Below are positions 845 through 60,830 of a DNA stretch of 64,000 nt, piece after piece. The notes beneath the pieces are model-generated. The model was not told the DNA's origin. It saw nothing but the letters and a program-made list of their open reading frames with translations, and searched no databases. Position 1 is the stretch's first letter. Each line of letters begins with the position of its first letter. The DNA comes from Liolophura sinensis (lineage: Eukaryota; Mollusca; Polyplacophora; Chitonida; Chitonidae): NCBI RefSeq assembly GCF_032854445.1, contig NC_088299.1, positions 9,481,608-9,545,607 of the forward strand. The letters run 5' to 3'. The position numbers and the translations under genes were made by a program.

Positions 845-1006
845 GACACGATTGTTGCCATGGAAGCCCTCATGGAGTTTGCTCAGGTGGATACTCACCG
901 GAACGTTTTTGACATGCTACTGTCTGTGGAATCAACTGCCAACCCAGCCTGGAAGGCCTTCAGTTACCTGTCCAAGTATAACTATACAACACTTCAGATG
1001 CACTCG
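845..1006 (+). CDS. CD109-like: TEP/CD109-like gene, internal exon (end of thioester domain)
   Basis: This exon of 54 codons lies between a CAG acceptor (ending 844) and a GTGAGT donor (1007), phase 0 at both ends. It begins DTIVAMEALMEFA, the motif alpha-2-macroglobulin family proteins carry near the end of the alpha-helical thioester domain (compare the D-T-x-x-A-L-x-A-L pattern). It ends with YNYTTLQMHS, which contains an NYT glycosylation sequon. In the family this segment packs against the thioester helices of a secreted or GPI-anchored protein that binds proteases or targets. The thioester GCGEQ motif itself would be in an exon left of the window. Family assignment is firm because all six exons join in one frame. 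CD109 rather than another TEP is an inference. Confidence 0.9.
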
Positions 1007-1259
1007 GTGAGTATCTCTTCCGCCTCGTCACCACCCCCCCCCCTCCCTCCCCTCTTCCCCAACAAAATATGCCACATCTAAGCGGAAATATCGGGGGATA
1101 TTGGATTATTCTTCTTAAAGGCCACGAAAAACCATTGGTCCATAGACGAGTCAACCATAAGTAATATACGATTCCGTTATATCTACAAGTGTTTCTAAAA
1201 CTAAACGTTATACTTTGACATGATGCACATTAAATTGCACTAACTTTTTCGTATTCCAG

Positions 1260-1322
1260 TTACCCAGTGTTTGGGGTTGGGTCAAGGTCAAGGCCCATGG
1301 GGTTGGCAGAGCCATGCTACAG
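1260..1322 (+). CDS. CD109-like: TEP/CD109-like gene, internal exon (21 codons)
   Basis: This small exon sits between a TATTCCAG acceptor (ending 1259) and a GTAAAA donor (1323), phase 0 on both sides. It encodes LPSVWGWVKVKAHGVGRAML plus Q. This matches the strand pair in alpha-2-macroglobulin proteins where a conserved V-x-A-x-G-x-G-x-A-x-x-Q pattern precedes the receptor-binding domain. Only the phase and the fit to flanking exons reveal it; it is too short to stand out as an ORF. Confidence 0.88.
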
Positions 1323-1817
1323 GTAAAACAGTCTTTTAAACTTAAGTCAAAATTTCAAATGACTTTAAAATTGTTATTTTATGGTGTAACAAGGAGGGAA
1401 TATTTCTCGCCAACGTAAATTATCCGAGGGTAAGTTACTATGCAATAAATTTCAGCTAAATGTAATGGAAAGGAACTTACGAATTTAATGAAATTTTCAC
1501 ATAAGCCTGAGATGGCTTCGTCATTTTGGGGCCTGTTATTACTGCTTTAACAGTAGGCCTAATCCAAGGGACATACACTGTATCATTATCGTACTATTAC
1601 GTGTAACTAAGATTGCAACTGTCCAATTTCCATTTTTCCAGTATCAGTATAATGTAACTGGGTGGGGTGTCATGTCATCTTCGGCGTGAAACTTCAGTAG
1701 CGGCAAAGCCCCTAAGTGCTTGCACTTACAATTGTCATAACATATAAGAAATATTTAATATGTTATTCATTATTCTGAACTTTTCTTAGTAATTGATTCA
1801 TTTCTTTCTTTACTCAG

Positions 1818-1951
1818 CTCTCTGTATCAGAGAACGTGGAATATCCATGGAAGGTAAAACCGCCGAACATCACGACCTTTGACCTGATGGTTGATCGCAT
1901 GGATTGGGGCGGTCGTAACAATTCCGTATTAGAACTGACCGTCTGTACCAG
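1818..1951 (+). CDS. CD109-like: TEP/CD109-like gene, exon entering the receptor-binding domain
   Basis: The acceptor TTTACTCAG ends at 1817 and the donor is CAG/GTACCA at 1952. The exon is 44 codons plus two bases (enters phase 0, leaves with two bases of a split codon). It reads LSVSENVEYPWKVKPPNITT at the start and NNSVLELTVCTR at the end. The VCTR with its Cys is the family signature at the start of the macroglobulin receptor-binding domain. Two Asn-X-Ser/Thr sequons (NIT and NNS) suit an extracellular glycoprotein. The split codon AG/G restores Arg when joined to the exon at 3988, giving VCTRW. Confidence 0.9.
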
Positions 1952-2110
1952 GTACCACCAATCTGCGAATCAGTATGAAAAAAAACGTAAAAATGAAGAA
2001 AACATCAGTAAAAATACCATTAATAACTGCAACTTTTTAAAAAACTTTTTCACTGAAATAAGTGTAAAATTAAGTGTGTGAATTGTGGTGTGAACTTTTT
2101 GGGCCATACA

Positions 2111-2325
2111 AATGGATGGATTCAACCCATCCAATGTTCCACTACCCCTTCTCGTAATGACGTTACTTTTCATTACATTCCGGTGTCATGACGTCACAAA
2201 AAGACAAAACAATTGTAACAAATGCGTTAGGCATCCGGTTGATCTATTTGCAACAATACTTCTTATGACTGGTCAACTCCGTGTTTTTACTTGACAATTC
2301 GGAAAGATCTATTATAGATAATATA
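2111..2325 (+). repeat. dispersed repeat, copy 1 of 2
   Basis: The segment from GGATGGATTCAACC to the TCGGAAAGATCTATT end is matched, with many substitutions, by 7752-7985. Shared blocks include TACTTTTCATT, CATCCGGTTGA, TTGCAACAATA and CGGAAAGA. The family is not identified. It is an old copy lying in an intron of the TEP/CD109-like gene. Confidence 0.6.
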
Positions 2326-2537
2326 TGTCGCCAGTGACGTCACACAACTTTTTCTACACCTTTATATTCAAGTCTGAATAAAACTCTTGTGAAAGAGTAT
2401 CTGTGAAGTAAAAGCCAGTTTGACATTAAAAACATGTCTTATTGCCAGAGTCATTATGAAACTCATTTGCAAAATATACTTTAAACAATATTGCCCATAA
2501 TGACCACCTTGCATGAATTCCAAACTTTTGCCTGCAT

Positions 2538-2705
2538 TTAATTCAGGGAAGAAACTTTTGAAAAAAGTGTAAAAGTATCGTTTTGAACTTGACCAGATTC
2601 AAACTCCAGAATCATTCCTTGAGTTGCTCCAGTAATGAGCTGTGTCGTTTCTTGTACTAATTGGTCACGAAGCTGATTAAGAGAACATTTCTTGAGTTCT
2701 CCAAT
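2538..2705 (-). other. possible antisense terminal exon or gene fragment, unidentified
   Basis: Read on the minus strand, a strong acceptor (ACTGTTTCAG, plus-strand 2706-2715) opens directly into 55 codons and a TAA. The peptide begins IGELKKCSLNQLRDQL, is hydrophilic and protein-like in composition, and ends FTLFSKVSSLN. I do not recognise it. No AATAAA is visible close behind the stop on that strand. It could be a fragment of a retroposed or transposon-borne gene, a terminal exon of an antisense gene, or chance. Confidence 0.25.
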
Positions 2706-3109
2706 CTGAAACAGTATGTTATGTAACAAGAAACCTCCTGCAATAGAGTTGGAGCTACATTTCACAAATTTTTGAACAACCGCAAAATTTATCTCTTCCG
2801 AAAAGCAATTTAGATTCGCAATTTTAAAAACTTAGATTGAAATCTTATCAAGTCTTGTCGAAATGTTATCAGCTGTAACACATTCATTTAATAGGGAGTG
2901 ATATCCCGTCTACACAAATCGGTTCCAAGCTGTGTTAAAACAGTTTCATCTCTGATGTTACACTGCACTGCTGGTGATCTACCTTTTTGCTTTACGAGAC
3001 CAGCTATACGGAAACAGTGACGTATCTAAGAGAAGAGTGAAACTGTTTACTTCGCTTGGACCGACTTCATTTAGGCCGTTTATGTTTCCCATACTAATAA
3101 TTTGATACA

Positions 3110-4027
3110 GGGGGCTACAGAAAAGCGTTCATCCTGGTCTGACACTGTTAATCTGACACAGGTGGATATTACCATAAAAAGCGCCGACTCCGGTCTGACA
3201 GACCGTTTCTTTGACACAGGTGGCTATTTTTACAGAAAATCGTGCACTATGGTCTGACAGACTGTTTCTTTGACTCAGGTGACTCTTTGCTACAGAAAAG
3301 TGTGCTCTCTGGTCTAGCAGTCTGTCTATTTGACACAGGTGGCTATAGCTACAGAAAATCGTACACTATGGTCTGACAGACTGTTTCTTTGACAAAGGTG
3401 ACTGTTGCTACAGAAAAGTGTGCACTCTGGTCTGACAGTCTGTTCATTTGACACAGGTGGCTATTGCTACAGAAAAGCGTGCACTCTGGTCTGACAGACT
3501 GTTTCTTTGACACAGGTGGCTATTGTTACAGAAAAGCATGCACTCTGGTCTGACAGTCTGTTCATTTGACTCAGGTGGCTATTGCTACAGAAAAGCATGC
3601 ACTCTGGTCTGACAGTCTGTTCATTTGACACAGGTGGCTATTGCTACAGAAGAGTATGCACTCTGGTCTGACAGTCTGTTCATTTGACTCAGGTGGCTAT
3701 TGTTACAGAAAAGCATGCACTCTGGTCTGACAGTCTGTTCATTTGACTCAGGTGGCTATTGCTACAGAAGAGCGTGCACTCTGGTCTGACAGTCTGTTCA
3801 TTTGACTCAGGTGGCTATTGTCACAGAAAAGAGTGCACTCTGGTCTGACAATCTGTTCATTTGACTCAGGTGGCTATTGCTACAGAAGAGCGTGCACTCT
3901 GGCCTGACAGTCTGTTCATTTGACTCAGGTGACTGTTGCTACAGAAAAGTGTGCACTCTGGTCTGACAGTCTGTTCATTTGACTCAGGTGGCTATTGCTA
4001 CAGAAGAGCGTGCACTCTGGTCTGGCA
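3110..4027 (+). repeat. 59-bp minisatellite built from a splice acceptor and exon start
   Basis: About 15 direct copies of a 59-bp unit occur, degenerate at the left end and nearly identical from about 3420 on. The unit holds TCTGTTCATTTGACTCAG, then GTGGCTATTGCTACAGAA, then RAGCGTGCACTCTGGTCTGA. The last copy is the functional acceptor and first 40 or so bases of the exon at 3988. So every copy repeats the intron 3' end plus the exon 5' end. The spacing is exact: for example CTCTGGTCTG recurs at 3661 and 3720. Confidence 0.95.
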
Positions 4028-4162
4028 GTAATGGAGATAGAAATCCCCACGGGCTTTGTTGTGATGAATGATACCTTGAGGTCGTACGTCCAGTCCAAGG
4101 CAATACCGACATTACGGAGGGCCGAATCCTACTACAGAAAAGTCGTGTATTACTTTGATTAC
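3988..4162 (+). CDS. CD109-like: TEP/CD109-like gene, receptor-binding domain exon
   Basis: The acceptor is TTTGACTCAG ending at 3987 and the donor is GTGAGT at 4163. The exon gives one base to complete the split Arg codon and then 58 codons. It starts WLLLQKSVHSGLAVMEIEIP and continues TGFVV, the hallmark S-G-(M/L)-A-(V/I)-(M/L)-E-(I/V) strand of the alpha-2-macroglobulin receptor-binding domain. It ends with the amphipathic helix region (RRAESYYRK) and VVYYFDY. Its first 40 bases are part of the 59-bp array, so the acceptor was chosen by phase: only this last copy keeps the frame. Use of the copy before it would meet TAA early in this exon, at the bases reading CAGTAATGG. Confidence 0.92.
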
Positions 4163-5174
4163 GTGAGTATTGTTCTTTGTTTGCCTCCCGCTTGACGCTA
4201 TTTCCAGCGTCATATCAAGAAGCTTCACTCAGACCATAAGTGCCACCAAGCGACAACGTAATGCCAATGGAAGACTCGAGAAAGACGACAAAAGTGATAT
4301 AAGATATAATTGTGACGTAATAAAGGAAAGAACACATGAGTTCACAGCTGTGGACCGTCTCGATACAGACGGGAAGGACTTCTCCATCAGTGCATGTTTG
4401 TACACCTACTCCTTACAGCTCATGCGCCGCATCACTGCCACCTCAAGCATGGCTTGTACAGAAATCTTGAACCATGTCAAGGTCCTGACGTAGATGAGGC
4501 AGGAAGCCAGAAAACGTAAAGATTCTGTCTCAATGTTTTATGGCTTCTATATGTACTCGATACACGTACATTCTCTTTATCTAAAGTATACACAACATGA
4601 ATCTGACGGACATCGAAACAGTTTTATTGATGTGTGCTGATTACAAGTCCTGCAAGGACATCAGTGGTTAGGATAAACCTAAAGAAACCTGTACGTACCT
4701 CGCACAGGCTCCAAAAGTCAAACTTGTCTCGTGGTGACAGTGATGTAATGCGAGAGTAGAGGGCGACACATGCGCTGTAAGGAGTATGGCTCCTACACTA
4801 TAATTACGAGAGGGACAATCTTCTCTACGAAGCCATGGGAGTCATGATAGTCTTTGAAACACGATCTAAACATGTTATCTGTATCGTGTTTTATAGATAC
4901 ATACTTTGGGCGGGGGAACAATTCATTTTGCACATTTAATAAAGGATGTGGTTTACAGACTGAAGATACGGTGTCAAGATCTAAGCATTGTAGGGCCGAC
5001 AGATTTTGAGGTTTACAATATTGGTTCCTACTTTTCTGTGGATATGTTTGAAATTCTTGGATTTGATGATCAATGTTACTGCTGTTCTCGACCGCTCCAT
5101 TGTGCTGTGGTTCTCAGCCGTTCCTTTTGTGGTAGTTCTCTAACGTTCCTTTAGCTGTAGTCCTCTAACGTTGC
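4163..5174. other. intron, no recognised feature
   Basis: Open frames occur here (for example 4170-4493 and 4906-5154) but show no family motif, and they are interior to an intron whose flanking exons join in phase. I see no repeat family in this kilobase. Confidence 0.55.
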
Positions 5175-5533
5175 GACCGGCCCGGATAGCACAGTTGGTA
5201 GAGCGTCCGCTTCGGGACCGGTAGATCCAGGATCAATCCTTGGTCGAGTCACACCTAAGAGTTTAAAAGAGGAAGTTGTAACTTCCTCGCTTGGCGTTCA
5301 GCATGAAGGGGATAGTGCAACGACTGGTTGACCCGTATCAGTATAATGGCTCGGGCGGGGCGGCTTACTTGCCTTCGGTAAGTCGTCTCAGTGATGCAGC
5401 ACTAAATAAAAGAGCGGTGGAAATCCGTCCTGCGACAAGGAGGCACATTACACGTACATGCACCCTAATGATTCCTTCGTCGTCATATGACTGAAAAATT
5501 GTTGAGTACGACGTTAAACCCCAAGCACTCTCA
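5175..5533 (+). mobile_element. SINE family 1, full-length copy with target duplication
   Basis: This is a tRNA-derived SINE. The head GGCCCGGATAGCACAGTTGG then TAGAGCG is a polymerase III A-box context, and a diverged B box lies around GGATCAATCCTTGG. The body follows, then the tail GTTGAGTACGACGTTAAACC with a short ACTC end. A 12-bp target site duplication, CTCTAACGTTGC, flanks it at 5163-5174 and 5534-5545. The copy at 22187-22550 differs at only about six sites, so the family was active recently. Molluscan SINE families with this design are known; I have not assigned it to a named one. Confidence 0.93.
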
Positions 5534-5767
5534 CTCTAACGTTGCTTTTGCTGTAGGCTAGTTCTCTAACGTTCCTTTCCTTCACATAGCCTTGAGACCA
5601 TACACCAGTTTTGTTTTTATGACTACCGGTATGCCTTGTATGCTAACCATATGATTTTGCAAAGAACCCTTAAATATAGGAGCCGGTAGATCGAAATTAA
5701 TACCAAACTAATAGAGATTTAGCCAAAATATCGACGAGAGGCTTAACTGCTACTCTTTTGAACAACA

Positions 5768-6000
5768 GGGCCCGGTTGTTCAGAACTGATTTAAGACTTA
5801 ATACCAGATTTAACTTTAAACTAAGTATTCAGTTTTGCGATTGACGTGAAACAAATTGTGTAATTATATTAAATATGAACTAAAACTGCTGCTGTTATTC
5901 TTTGGAGAACTGCATTATCTGAAGAGTTTGGCCTGAAATGTAAATATAACATATGACCTAATACCAGTATTAGCTAATGCAATTTCGAACAACTGGGCCC
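5768..6000. mobile_element. MITE-like element with GGGCCC terminal inverted repeats
   Basis: The left end GGGCCCGGTTGTTCAGAA is inverted at the right end as TTTCGAACAACTGGGCCC, giving about 18-bp imperfect terminal inverted repeats around 233 bp of AT-rich non-coding DNA. Internal motifs such as TTAATACCAG recur in a related element at 10462-10590. It lies in the intron just before the next TEP/CD109-like exon. No clear target duplication was seen. Confidence 0.65.
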
Positions 6001-6093
6001 GCGATTTGGAATAATGCGGAAATATCAATGCATGTACATCACAAAGTCAAAACCCCACCCCAATATTCGCTTATTTTGCCAATTGTGTTGTAG

Positions 6094-6199
6094 ATTGATA
6101 CGAGCAAGACATGTATACGATTCCGAGCAGACCGCTGGTACCCCGTGGCTAACGGTACATTACAACATCAGATGAGGATCTACGACTACTATGAGCCAG
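6094..6199 (+). CDS. CD109-like: TEP/CD109-like gene, end of receptor-binding domain
   Basis: The exon lies between an acceptor TTGTAG (ending 6093) and donor GTACAT (6200). It has 35 codons plus one base, entering in phase 0 after the preceding FDY. It reads IDTSKTCIRFRADRWYPVAN and ends MRIYDYYEP. The final Y-D-Y-Y-E is the most conserved C-terminal motif of the alpha-2-macroglobulin receptor-binding domain, and the T-C-I-R-F strand carries a Cys. An NGT sequon sits between these motifs. Confidence 0.92.
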
Positions 6200-6252
6200 G
6201 TACATGTACATCCGATAAAACGTGAGGGCGAAGCGGCGAGAAATTTGTTATA

Positions 6253-6400
6253 TTCATTTCATTATTTGATTGGTATTTTACGCAACCATGCGCAGGATGC
6301 TGGCAGAGCTTCCCACGTACGCGCAGAGAGAAAGCGGGCATGACTTGGACTTGAACTCACAGCGATCGCATTTGTAAGAGACTCCTGGATCAATTTCCTA
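6253..6400 (-). mobile_element. SINE family 2 copy with internal deletion
   Basis: In reverse orientation the tail (ATTTGATTGGTATTTTACGC) is fused directly to the mid-body (CATGCGCAGGATGCTGGCAG), so about 100 bp of the normal element are missing. The head-side bases (GGACTTGAACTCACAGCG, a reversed B-box region) follow. It lies in the last intron of the TEP/CD109-like gene. Confidence 0.75.
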
Positions 6401-6405
6401 TATAT

Positions 6406-6736
6406 AAAATATATTTTATTTATTTATTTGATTGGTGTTTTACGCAATACTCAAGAATATTTCACTTATACGATGGCGGTCAGCATTATGGTGGCTGGAA
6501 ACCGGTTGGAGCCCGGGGTAAACCCACGACCATCCGCAGGTTGCTGGAAGACCTTCCCACGTACGGGTGGAGAGGAAGCCAGCATGAGCTGGACTTGAAC
6601 TCACAGCGGCCGCATTGGTGAGTGAGTGAGTGAGTGAGTGAAAGTTTTAACGTCGCTTTCAACAATACCGCATTGATGAGAAGTTCCTGGGTCATTACGC
6701 TGCGCTAGCGCGCTAACCAACTGAGCCACGTAGGCC
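6406..6736 (-). mobile_element. SINE family 2, near full-length, with nested insertion
   Basis: From the right end inwards it reads GGGGCCTACGTGGCTCAGTT then GGTTAGCG (A box), the CGCTGTGAGTTCAAGTCC region (B box), the body, and the tail GTAAAACACCAATCAAATAA. The B-box side is interrupted by 50 bp at 6618-6667 derived from the tail of SINE family 1. Confidence 0.9.
6618..6667 (-). mobile_element. SINE family 1 tail fragment nested in SINE family 2
   Basis: Fifty bases read, on the minus strand, TATTGTTGAAAGCGACGTTA, then AAACTTTCACTCACTCACTC; this is the 3' end of SINE family 1. They are flanked by an 8-bp direct repeat CCGCATTG (6610-6617 and 6668-6675) that is single in intact copies. It is therefore a severely 5'-truncated insertion with its own target duplication. 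Confidence 0.82.
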
Positions 6737-6826
6737 CCTTCTCTACAAATAATTGTAATACTATACTACCGAATATTCAAATTTATATACTCACTCTAGT
6801 TGTCATTTTATATCTGTGTTTTTCAG

Positions 6827-7011
6827 GCCTTCACAATACCACCATGTATTTTACTCAAGACCTTGCCAGCCAGAATCTATGCTGGGCCTGTGCATCGTTC
6901 CAGTGTCCATACTGCCCTTACTTCAATGCCGCAGTAGTCATCAGAAGTGGCCTCACCATACTGTCATTGCTAACAACCTTAGTGACCAGTCTCTGTCTGT
7001 TATACATGTAG
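6827..7011 (+). CDS. CD109-like: TEP/CD109-like gene, last coding exon with GPI-like C-terminus
   Basis: The acceptor GTTTTTCAG ends at 6826. The two first bases complete a Gly codon, then 60 codons run to TAG at 7009-7011. The peptide starts LHNTTMYFTQDL, has a Cys cluster (CWAC and CPYC), and ends in the hydrophobic stretch SGLTILSLLTTLVTSLCLLY plus M. A hydrophobic end with no cytoplasmic tail fits a GPI-anchor signal, as in CD109, though a cleaved or secreted form cannot be excluded. The Cys cluster recalls the Cys-rich tails of invertebrate TEPs. No AATAAA is visible in the next 600 bp; a weaker CATAAA occurs near 7180. Confidence 0.88.
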
Positions 7012-32345: not shown

Positions 32346-32705
32346 ATCTAGACTGCTAGTACCTTGTTTAGTGTAGCTGTCAGTGTATGAAGCACTAGTA
32401 CTTTGCAAAGTGTAGCTGTCAGTGTATGAAGCACTAGAACCTTGCTGAGTGTAGCTGTCAGTGTATGAAGCACTACAACCTTGTTTAGTGTAGCTGTCAG
32501 TGTATGAAGCATTAGTACCTTGTTTAGTGTAGCTGTCAGTGTATGAAGCATTAGTACCTTGTTTAGTGTAGCTGTCATTGTATGAAGCACTAGTACCTTG
32601 TTGAGTGTAGCTGTCATTGTATGAAGCACTAGTACCTTGTTGAGTGTAGCTCTCAGTTCATCAAATACTGATACCTTGCTGAGTGTCTTTGTCCGTTTAC
32701 CAAAC
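32346..32705. repeat. 39-bp tandem repeat, about nine copies
   Basis: The unit is GTGTAGCTGTCAGTGTATGA, AGCACTAGTACCTTGTTTA. Copies are well conserved in the middle and diverge towards 32700. The period is 13 codons, which produces an artefactual repeat ORF on the minus strand. Confidence 0.95.
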
Positions 32706-59689: not shown

Positions 59690-60830
59690 TCCATGGCTTT
59701 ATGTATGCATAACTGTGTGCTACTACCTCTGTGATTTTGTGTACACACACCTTTAAGTCTATCTATTATCTCCATGATTTTATGTGCACATAATTTTGTA
59801 AGTCTCTAACAAACTACCTGGAGCCATGATATTATGTACACATAACTTTGTAAGTCAGGGTGCCAGCATGGCCGTGTGTTCCTCTCGGGCCCTGCCACCA
59901 AAATGTTGGCCGCCATCATATAAGTGAGATATTCTTAAGTACTGTGTAAAACACCAATAAAATAAATCAATAAATAAGTCTGTAACCTGCTCTCACAATG
60001 ACTTTGTGTGTACATAACTTTATAAATATATATCTACTATCACCATGATTTTATGTACACATATTTCTTTTCTTTGTACCTCAATAACTATTATGTACAC
60101 ACACCTTTATACAGGCGTATCAGTCATGTATGGAGGTTTGCGTGTTATCAGAGAGACTCGTGCTCACATGTTAGCCCGATCATTTTGAATTCTATTCACT
60201 GTGATAAAACGAGATTTCACATTACATGAACAGTATCCCTTTATAAGTCTATAACCTACTGTCACCATGATTTTATGTACACATAAATTTGAGCTGACTT
60301 TATGTACACACACCTTTATAAGTCTATAACCTACTGTCACCATGATTTTATGTACACATAAATTTGAGCTTAACTTACCATCTCCATGACTTTATATACA
60401 CACATCTTTATAAGTCTATAACCTACTGTCACCATGATTTTATGTACACATAAATTTGAGCTTAACTTACCATCTCCATGACTTTATATACACACATCTT
60501 TATAAGTCTATAACCTACTGTCACCATGATTTTATGTACACATGAATTTGAGCTTAACTTACCATCTCCATGACTTTATGTACACACACCTTTATAAGTC
60601 TATAACCTACTGTCACCATGATTTTATGTACACATGAATTTGAGCTTAACTTACCATCTCCATGACTTTATGTACACACACCTTTATAAGTCTATAACCT
60701 ACTATCACCATGATTTTATGTACACATGAATTTGAGCTTAACTTACCATCTCCATGTCTTTATGTACACACAACTTTATAAGTCTATAACCTACCATCTC
60801 CATGGTTTTATGTACTCATAACTTTATAAG
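59690..60830. repeat. 92-bp higher-order tandem repeat of two 46-bp subunits
   Basis: The best part (about 60240-60790) has exact 92-bp spacing: TTTATAAGTC starts at 60407 and 60499. Each unit holds two related halves, one with CACCATGATTTTATGTACAC and one with CTCCATGACTTTATRTACAC, each followed by a variable ATAA or ACAC end. The left part is degenerate single-subunit sequence, interrupted by a SINE fragment at 59868-59975 and by unrelated DNA at about 60120-60240. Confidence 0.92.
59868..59975 (+). mobile_element. SINE family 2 fragment inside tandem array
   Basis: It holds part of the body (TTCCTCTCGGGCCCTGCCAC, ATGTTGGCCGCCATCATATA) and the tail (AGTACTGTGTAAAACACCAA). TAAGTC occurs on both sides, a possible short target duplication. 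Confidence 0.8.

Follow-up and report, generated by a model that had tools for sequence, protein, structure and literature searches.

A splice-acceptor minisatellite, probably of the amphioxus "mirage" kind, in an A2M-superfamily gene of the chiton Liolophura sinensis

The acceptor array and its host gene

The stretch analysed here comprises 64,000 nucleotides of Liolophura sinensis DNA ("the window", C5:9481608-9545607 in an assembly of 609 Mb and 632 contigs) and carries on its plus strand the 3' end (845-7011) of an A2M-superfamily, CD109-like gene that begins upstream of the window. Directly 5' of the exon 3988-4162 of this gene lies a tandem array, which was located by Tandem Repeats Finder (TRF) at 3114-4029 with a period of 59 bp, 15.6 copies, 86% matches and a score of 1291. 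A preliminary description of this DNA had read the array as about 15 repeats of the intron 3' end joined to the first bases of the following exon, each with an AG/G acceptor (the slash marks the splice border). TRF and the unit alignment bear this out, each unit joining an intron tail of ~19 nt to ~40 nt from the start of the exon. When the units are cut at the acceptor, 16 acceptor-like AG/G sites with exon-like starts are obtained from 3111 to 3988. Both AG and AG/G are present in 16 of 16 copies, the first copy reading AG/GGGG and the other 15 AG/GTG. The upstream exon-like starts are found at 3111, 3162, 3220, 3279, 3339, 3398, 3457, 3516, 3575, 3634, 3693, 3752, 3811, 3870 and 3929, and the spacing between copies is exactly 59 bp in 12 of 15 intervals (51, 58 and 60 bp in the remaining three). 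In the whole assembly the array matched a single place, repeat counts in that search being lower bounds.

In the six-exon model (845-1006 to 6827-7011, Table 1) the frame is open through the junction at 3988. The spliced product matches the A2M receptor-binding domain (A2M_recep, PF07677, E 6.3e-19), and its nearest solved structures are CD109 and, next, mosquito TEP1, in agreement with the initial assignment to an immune-type gene. The junction codes VCTR-WLLLQKSVHSGLAVMEIEIPTGF, which aligns without gaps to TEP1 in that stretch, while the gap towards CD109 amounts to 3 residues. A string search for the thioester motif GCGEQ found no CGEQ or GCGE in the frames of the regions L006, L007 and L008. 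The thioester-like place reads PYGSAEQNMFNFA (PYGSAEQN) both in this gene and in its paralog on C9; by eye, we take it to be the equivalent of the PYGCGEQN thioester site. Judged from this place, the thioester appears to have been lost in both paralogs. Due to the PYGSAEQN found there, the gene is best called A2M-superfamily, CD109-like, and not a thioester TEP.

Origin and strength of the acceptor copies

The C9 paralog matches the window gene in 18 coding blocks, in order. Its acceptor lies at the same aligned position as 3988, and the exon there, coding WTYLEKSLRSGLAVMEVDIPTGF, is ~72% identical to exon 3988-4162 with a start identical in position. No comparable array was present in the paralog intron inspected at the same position. 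Due to the matching exon start in a paralog that has no array, we propose that the array arose in the window gene by tandem duplication of the real junction. The exon start would then be ancestral and the array made from it, not the reverse, on the assumption that the C9 paralog never carried an array. The copies differ in an orderly way: the divergence between them rises with separation, from 0.13 for neighbours up to ~0.26. Identity to the consensus is lowest, at 78%, in the two outermost copies and reaches 93-98% in the copies from 3457 on (one at 90%). The outermost copy, which is 74.5% identical to the last one in the unit alignment, probably marks what is left of the array's first 5' edge. 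With a divergence of 0.017, the copy four units upstream is the one closest to the real exon start, and recent turnover therefore seems to have included the coding end of the array.

Only the last of the 16 copies (3988) gives an open frame, as the preliminary description had claimed: when the AGs from 3111 to 3970 are used as acceptors, an early stop follows in 61 of 61 cases, 1 to 52 codons on. The description had also expected shifted frames to meet TGA in the repeat or TAA in the true exon. The first part holds, 13 of the 15 upstream copies ending in TGA (those at 3279, 3398 and 3929 at once), one in TAA and one in TAG; the TAA of the true exon, however, is never reached, since these stops all lie inside the array. 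Frame-keeping AGs inside the true exon occur at 4009 and further in at 4081, 4120 and 4138.

For acceptor strength, a matrix was built from 32 real acceptors of both paralogs, and the two array-borne true sites were excluded when arrays were scored. The true site scores 6.9, five of the 15 upstream copies also score 6.9 and the other ten range from 1.2 to 6.7. Scored with each left out in turn, the 32 real acceptors range from 0.1 to 17.7 (median 8.2), and 15 of 15 upstream copies lie above the weakest of them. Because five copies equal the true site, local strength cannot choose the last copy, and we rejected it as the chooser. A branch-point-like CTGAC stands 20-22 nt 5' of the acceptor in 14 of 16 copies; this word, in the units as at 3963-3967, is exon-derived text of the preceding copy, whereas the real exon has CTGGC. 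Column conservation was likewise not accepted as evidence of function: in 15 copies, 28 of 59 columns show no variation, and with a probability of ~0.22 that two given columns are both invariant, the AG columns are not quieter than chance.

Table 1. Coordinates of the features discussed (window positions unless a region is named)
Feature	Position	Strand	Basis or remark
Exon, A2M-superfamily (CD109-like) gene	845..1006	+	Open frame, AG/GT borders, C9 paralog exon with the same borders
Exon	1260..1322	+	Exon model, paralog match
Exon adjoining the array intron on its 5' side, end ...LTVCTR plus split codon	1818..1951	+	Exon model, paralog match
Outermost copy, strongly diverged: its intron tail (tactaataatttgatacag)	3092..3110	+	Unit alignment
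Splice-acceptor minisatellite, very probably "mirage" type	3111..4029	+	15 decoys (intron tail and exon start), real copy last; TRF and unit alignment
15 upstream acceptor copies	3111..3987	+	Frame check and acceptor scores; early stop inside the array for each
Candidate branch point of the true acceptor, CTGAC	3963..3967	+	A 22 nt before the exon; putative function
Exon with the true acceptor, coding WLLLQKSVHSGLAVMEIEIPTGF..., start of the A2M receptor-binding domain	3988..4162	+	Pfam A2M_recep, TEP1 alignment, paralog
Exon	6094..6199	+	Exon model, paralog match
Last coding exon: Cys-rich part, hydrophobic tail and TAG stop	6827..7011	+	Open frame to stop, paralog match
Second acceptor array, window gene	L006 (C5:9471608-9481607) 4591-4914		8 copies including the true one, spacing 40-44 bp
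Thioester-like place of the window gene	L006 5549-5743		PYGSAEQN; same in the C9 paralog
Donor array, paralog	C9:19911927-19912501 (in L007, minus-strand gene)		21-bp unit containing CAG/GTA, ~28 copies
Donor array, myosin head exon end	L029 (C1:26640500-26650499) 4042-4233		31-bp unit, 6.2 copies
Putative donor array	L009 (C5:339564-349563) 2744-3329		75-bp unit x 7.8; end of putative signal-peptide exon and donor

Comparison with mirages and rival explanations

The preliminary description knew of no described system of this form, but the same anatomy has been reported from amphioxus under the name "mirages". These are minisatellite-like tandem duplications across exon-intron borders, reported for the globin genes BflGb6 and BflGb9 and for Adh3 (PMC3087553), and also for troponin C (TnC) and PGBD5 (PMC3902484). 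BflGb6 repeats the intron 3' end together with the 5' part of exon 2, with 6 and 3 units in two haplotypes, the BflGb9 mirage lies at the 3' boundary of exon 2 and the Adh3 units measure 10-72 bp (PMC3087553). Overall, the units span 10-160 bp and both 5' and 3' boundaries are affected (PMC3087553, PMC3902484). Length and somatic instability were reported, a model of intron gain was proposed, and reverse transcription PCR suggests regular splicing (PMC3087553); the Adh and TnC mirages are reported to make no aberrant mRNAs (PMC3902484). Like these mirages, the Liolophura array has a tandem unit that spans the boundary, an authentic boundary at the array edge and an AG kept in many units, and its acceptor anatomy is that of BflGb6. 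In contrast to the 6 and 3 units of BflGb6, it has 16 acceptor copies and belongs to an A2M-superfamily gene of a mollusc. In our searches of open-licence papers we saw mirages in this sense only for lancelets, and the available parts of studies on earthworm (PMC12783039) and nematode (PMC4039745) minisatellites report none spanning splice junctions. As far as we have searched, the Liolophura array would be a mirage in a new phylum.

We conclude that the array is very probably a splice-junction minisatellite of the mirage kind, in which the exon-proximal copy is the real acceptor. A piece of ~59 bp across the intron end and the start of the next exon would have undergone tandem duplication, and slippage or unequal exchange would then have multiplied the copies. 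This is proposed due to the homology of the units, the greatest divergence being at the 5' end, and the unduplicated junction of the paralog. Since the coding text belongs to the exon-proximal copy, this copy would have remained the acceptor in use, and the 15 others would have turned into intron. The last copy could be chosen by exon definition, the donor at 4163 pairing with the nearest good acceptor: from the last acceptor the exon measures 175 nt, from the next copies upstream it would measure 234, 293 nt and more. We infer that the last site can be distinguished by where it lies with respect to the downstream donor, while local sequence does not set it apart. Transcripts spliced to an upstream acceptor would contain an early stop and fall to mRNA decay. 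The array probably has no regulatory role, and is probably a harmless genome scar and not a new kind of switch.

Several points weigh against such a neutral scar. The AG is kept in all 16 copies, though neutral decay would slowly erode it, and post hoc the columns around TTTGAC.CAGGTG seemed to vary somewhat less than the others. The choice of the last acceptor is deduced from the open frame. In C. elegans, intron minisatellites have been linked to alternative splicing (PMC4039745), and by analogy an influence of the array on splicing is not far-fetched.

Among the alternatives, a leaky tuning of gene output is unlikely but fares best. Here, occasional use of the decoys would lower output with increasing copy number, and alleles of different length would differ in expression. 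The precedent is human CBS, where a variable number tandem repeat (VNTR) of 31 bp with 16-21 units lies at the exon 13/intron 13 border and more units reportedly lower the enzyme activity (PMC5188458); the five upstream copies that equal the true acceptor in score are also in line with it. Against it, a single copy of the locus was found in the assembly. Leaky tuning could coexist with a mirage origin. The CBS duplications are related to the Liolophura array in that a splice border is repeated, but the CBS VNTR lies at an exon end and not at an exon start, and CBS 844ins68, in which the distal site is chosen (PMC2630376), offers two sites only. In human segmental duplications, internal tandem repeats of the minisatellite type at exon-intron boundaries change intron structure, which resembles the situation here. 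They differ, however, in being variation among recent paralogs, and most of the intron cases also have transcripts that keep the repeat (PMC2812944).

The preliminary description had also raised a poison switch, that is, upstream acceptors used on purpose under some condition so that early stops shut the gene down. We consider such a device very unlikely. The early stops behind all 61 AGs, the near-equality of the copies with the true site and the immune-related gene family would suit it, and alternative splicing is known for snail TEP genes (PMC7016707). However, stops are the usual outcome of any duplication with a length not divisible by three, the C9 paralog does without an array, the AG columns are not quieter than chance, and the second acceptor array of the window gene has lost the AG in 2 of 8 copies. 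Lancelet mirages are reported to leave splicing undisturbed and to make no aberrant mRNA (PMC3902484). The alternative splicing of snail TEPs sits elsewhere, in the central variable region, where molluscan TEP genes have mutually exclusive exons, 12 of them over 30 kb in BgTEP2 (PMC7016707). Those genes share the superfamily and the presence of tandem exon copies with the array described here, but they repeat whole alternative exons, whereas the array repeats exon starts without donors.

An assembly artefact, with the animal's DNA lacking the array or the majority of its copies, is highly improbable. Tandem repeats are prone to such errors, and one amphioxus mirage was reported as aberrantly assembled in the genome draft (PMC3087553); here, on the other hand, the copies differ from each other in an orderly way, the 19.5 Mb contig suggests long reads, which would span 0.9 kb, and similar arrays exist at other junctions. 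The figure of 16 copies is given as assembled. Least probable of all is step-wise (recursive) splicing, in which units of the CAG/GTGG type, with an acceptor touching a weak donor (AG/GTG in 15 of 16 copies), would let the intron be removed in steps without adding an exon: by eye, GTGGCT or GTGACT is a poor-looking donor compared with the real gtaagg, gtgagt and gtaaaa, the AG/GT in the array is simply the exon start, and the C9 paralog has the same intron without an array.

Junction arrays elsewhere in the genome

A second acceptor array lies further upstream in the same gene, in L006, where an exon starting at ...TTGTTGTTACAG/TATGATGGTATTACTAAC is preceded by seven extra copies of acceptor and exon start with spacings of 40, 43 and 44 bp. 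The AG is kept in 6 of 8 copies, and an early stop follows from 9 of 9 upstream AGs examined. The exon text ATTACTAAC of this array provides a TACTAAC branch-point-like word. Read in sequence, the corresponding intron of the C9 paralog contains no copies of this array. The paralog in turn has a donor array of its own, which follows an exon ending ...GTCTCCACACAG/GTAAAACC with the unit CACACAG/GTAAAAACATGT; in the comparison of the two paralogs, the window gene has no donor-side array of this 21-bp unit. In a myosin gene, an exon ending ...ATTCCAGCTGTTGTTG/GTAAGTCAG is followed by units of exon end and intron start. A further probable donor array lies in L009, a region from a 200 kb sample of C5, where a putative gene is recognised by its frame. 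Taken together, the gene regions of the paralog pair hold six minisatellites by the criterion given below. Three of these are junction arrays, the junctions being those of 18 homologous blocks, and one junction array was found at 17 myosin exon matches in three fetched regions (17 of 81 matches). These junction arrays were met while looking and do not come from a planned sample.

Minisatellites (unit at least 20 bp, at least 4 copies, score at least 150) are frequent along C5: 20 regions of 10 kb contain 19 arrays that cover 9186 of 200,000 bases (4.6%). At this density chance contacts between arrays and exons are to be expected, and recurrence alone does not prove a preference for junctions. 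In a first test across the genome, we compared repeats of the donor word CAGGTAA with control words. Triplets of CAGGTAA, the words separated by gaps of 8-38, number 2087 + 2107 genome-wide, compared with 431 + 540 for reversed CAGGTAA, 866 + 1015 for CAGTGAA and 803 + 475 for reversed CAGTGAA. Normalised by the word counts outside tandem repeats in 324 kb, which include the gene regions under study (61, 45, 75 and 37), repeats of the donor word are 2.0 to 3.2 times commoner than those of the three controls. These are word matches and not arrays, in which long arrays count many times and none is tied to an exon, and the controls are three words only. Among the matches listed for C1 up to 4.61 Mb, separate arrays counted by hand number 16-17 for CAGGTAA and 8 for CAGTGAA. 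We regard the genome-wide excess of the donor word at repeats as suggestive.

The array in the window apparently is one of several, perhaps many, such arrays in this molluscan genome, and a wide occurrence of mirages in a mollusc may be new. Since they were met at one myosin gene junction and at several junctions in the pair of paralogs, boundary-spanning minisatellites are suggested not to be a peculiarity of lancelets. We speculate, holding it possible but on the whole doubtful, that exon-intron junctions are birth places of minisatellites genome-wide, yielding, as in lancelets, perhaps thousands of arrays in which donors and acceptors are duplicated and which splicing ignores by always taking the exon-proximal site. 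If this were true, the genome would be a natural experiment on how the spliceosome chooses between sites of identical sequence, and it would continually supply new introns as well as leakiness that depends on array length. Already the 16 near-identical acceptors side by side offer a direct test of what makes splicing take the exon-proximal site, and at such loci it can also be tested if introns are gained through tandem duplication of AG/GT junctions. For annotation pipelines they are a warning of false alternative exon starts.

The window holds seven minisatellites by the criterion given above. A minisatellite at 348-557 (42 bp x 5) lies in an upstream intron of the A2M-superfamily gene and not near junctions. 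Two other window arrays were rejected as mirages by eye: the one at 60295-60825 (92 bp x 5.8, 96% alike) has GTAAGT on its minus strand, but an exon beside it was not recognised, and at 32356-32657 contact with an exon was not seen in the translations. The array at 1-1405 of L027, which stops ~20 bp short of an acceptor-like site, was left uncounted. Stretches resembling dispersed repeats lie at 5170-5530, by eye with a tRNA-like head, and at 6415-6730, the latter type having matches at several places in the paralog region. On another contig, C8:37880506-37891931 contains eight haemocyanin beta-sandwich domains (PF14830) with open frames of 429-529 residues each in one 11 kb cluster, which is presumably the layout of the eight-unit molluscan hemocyanin.
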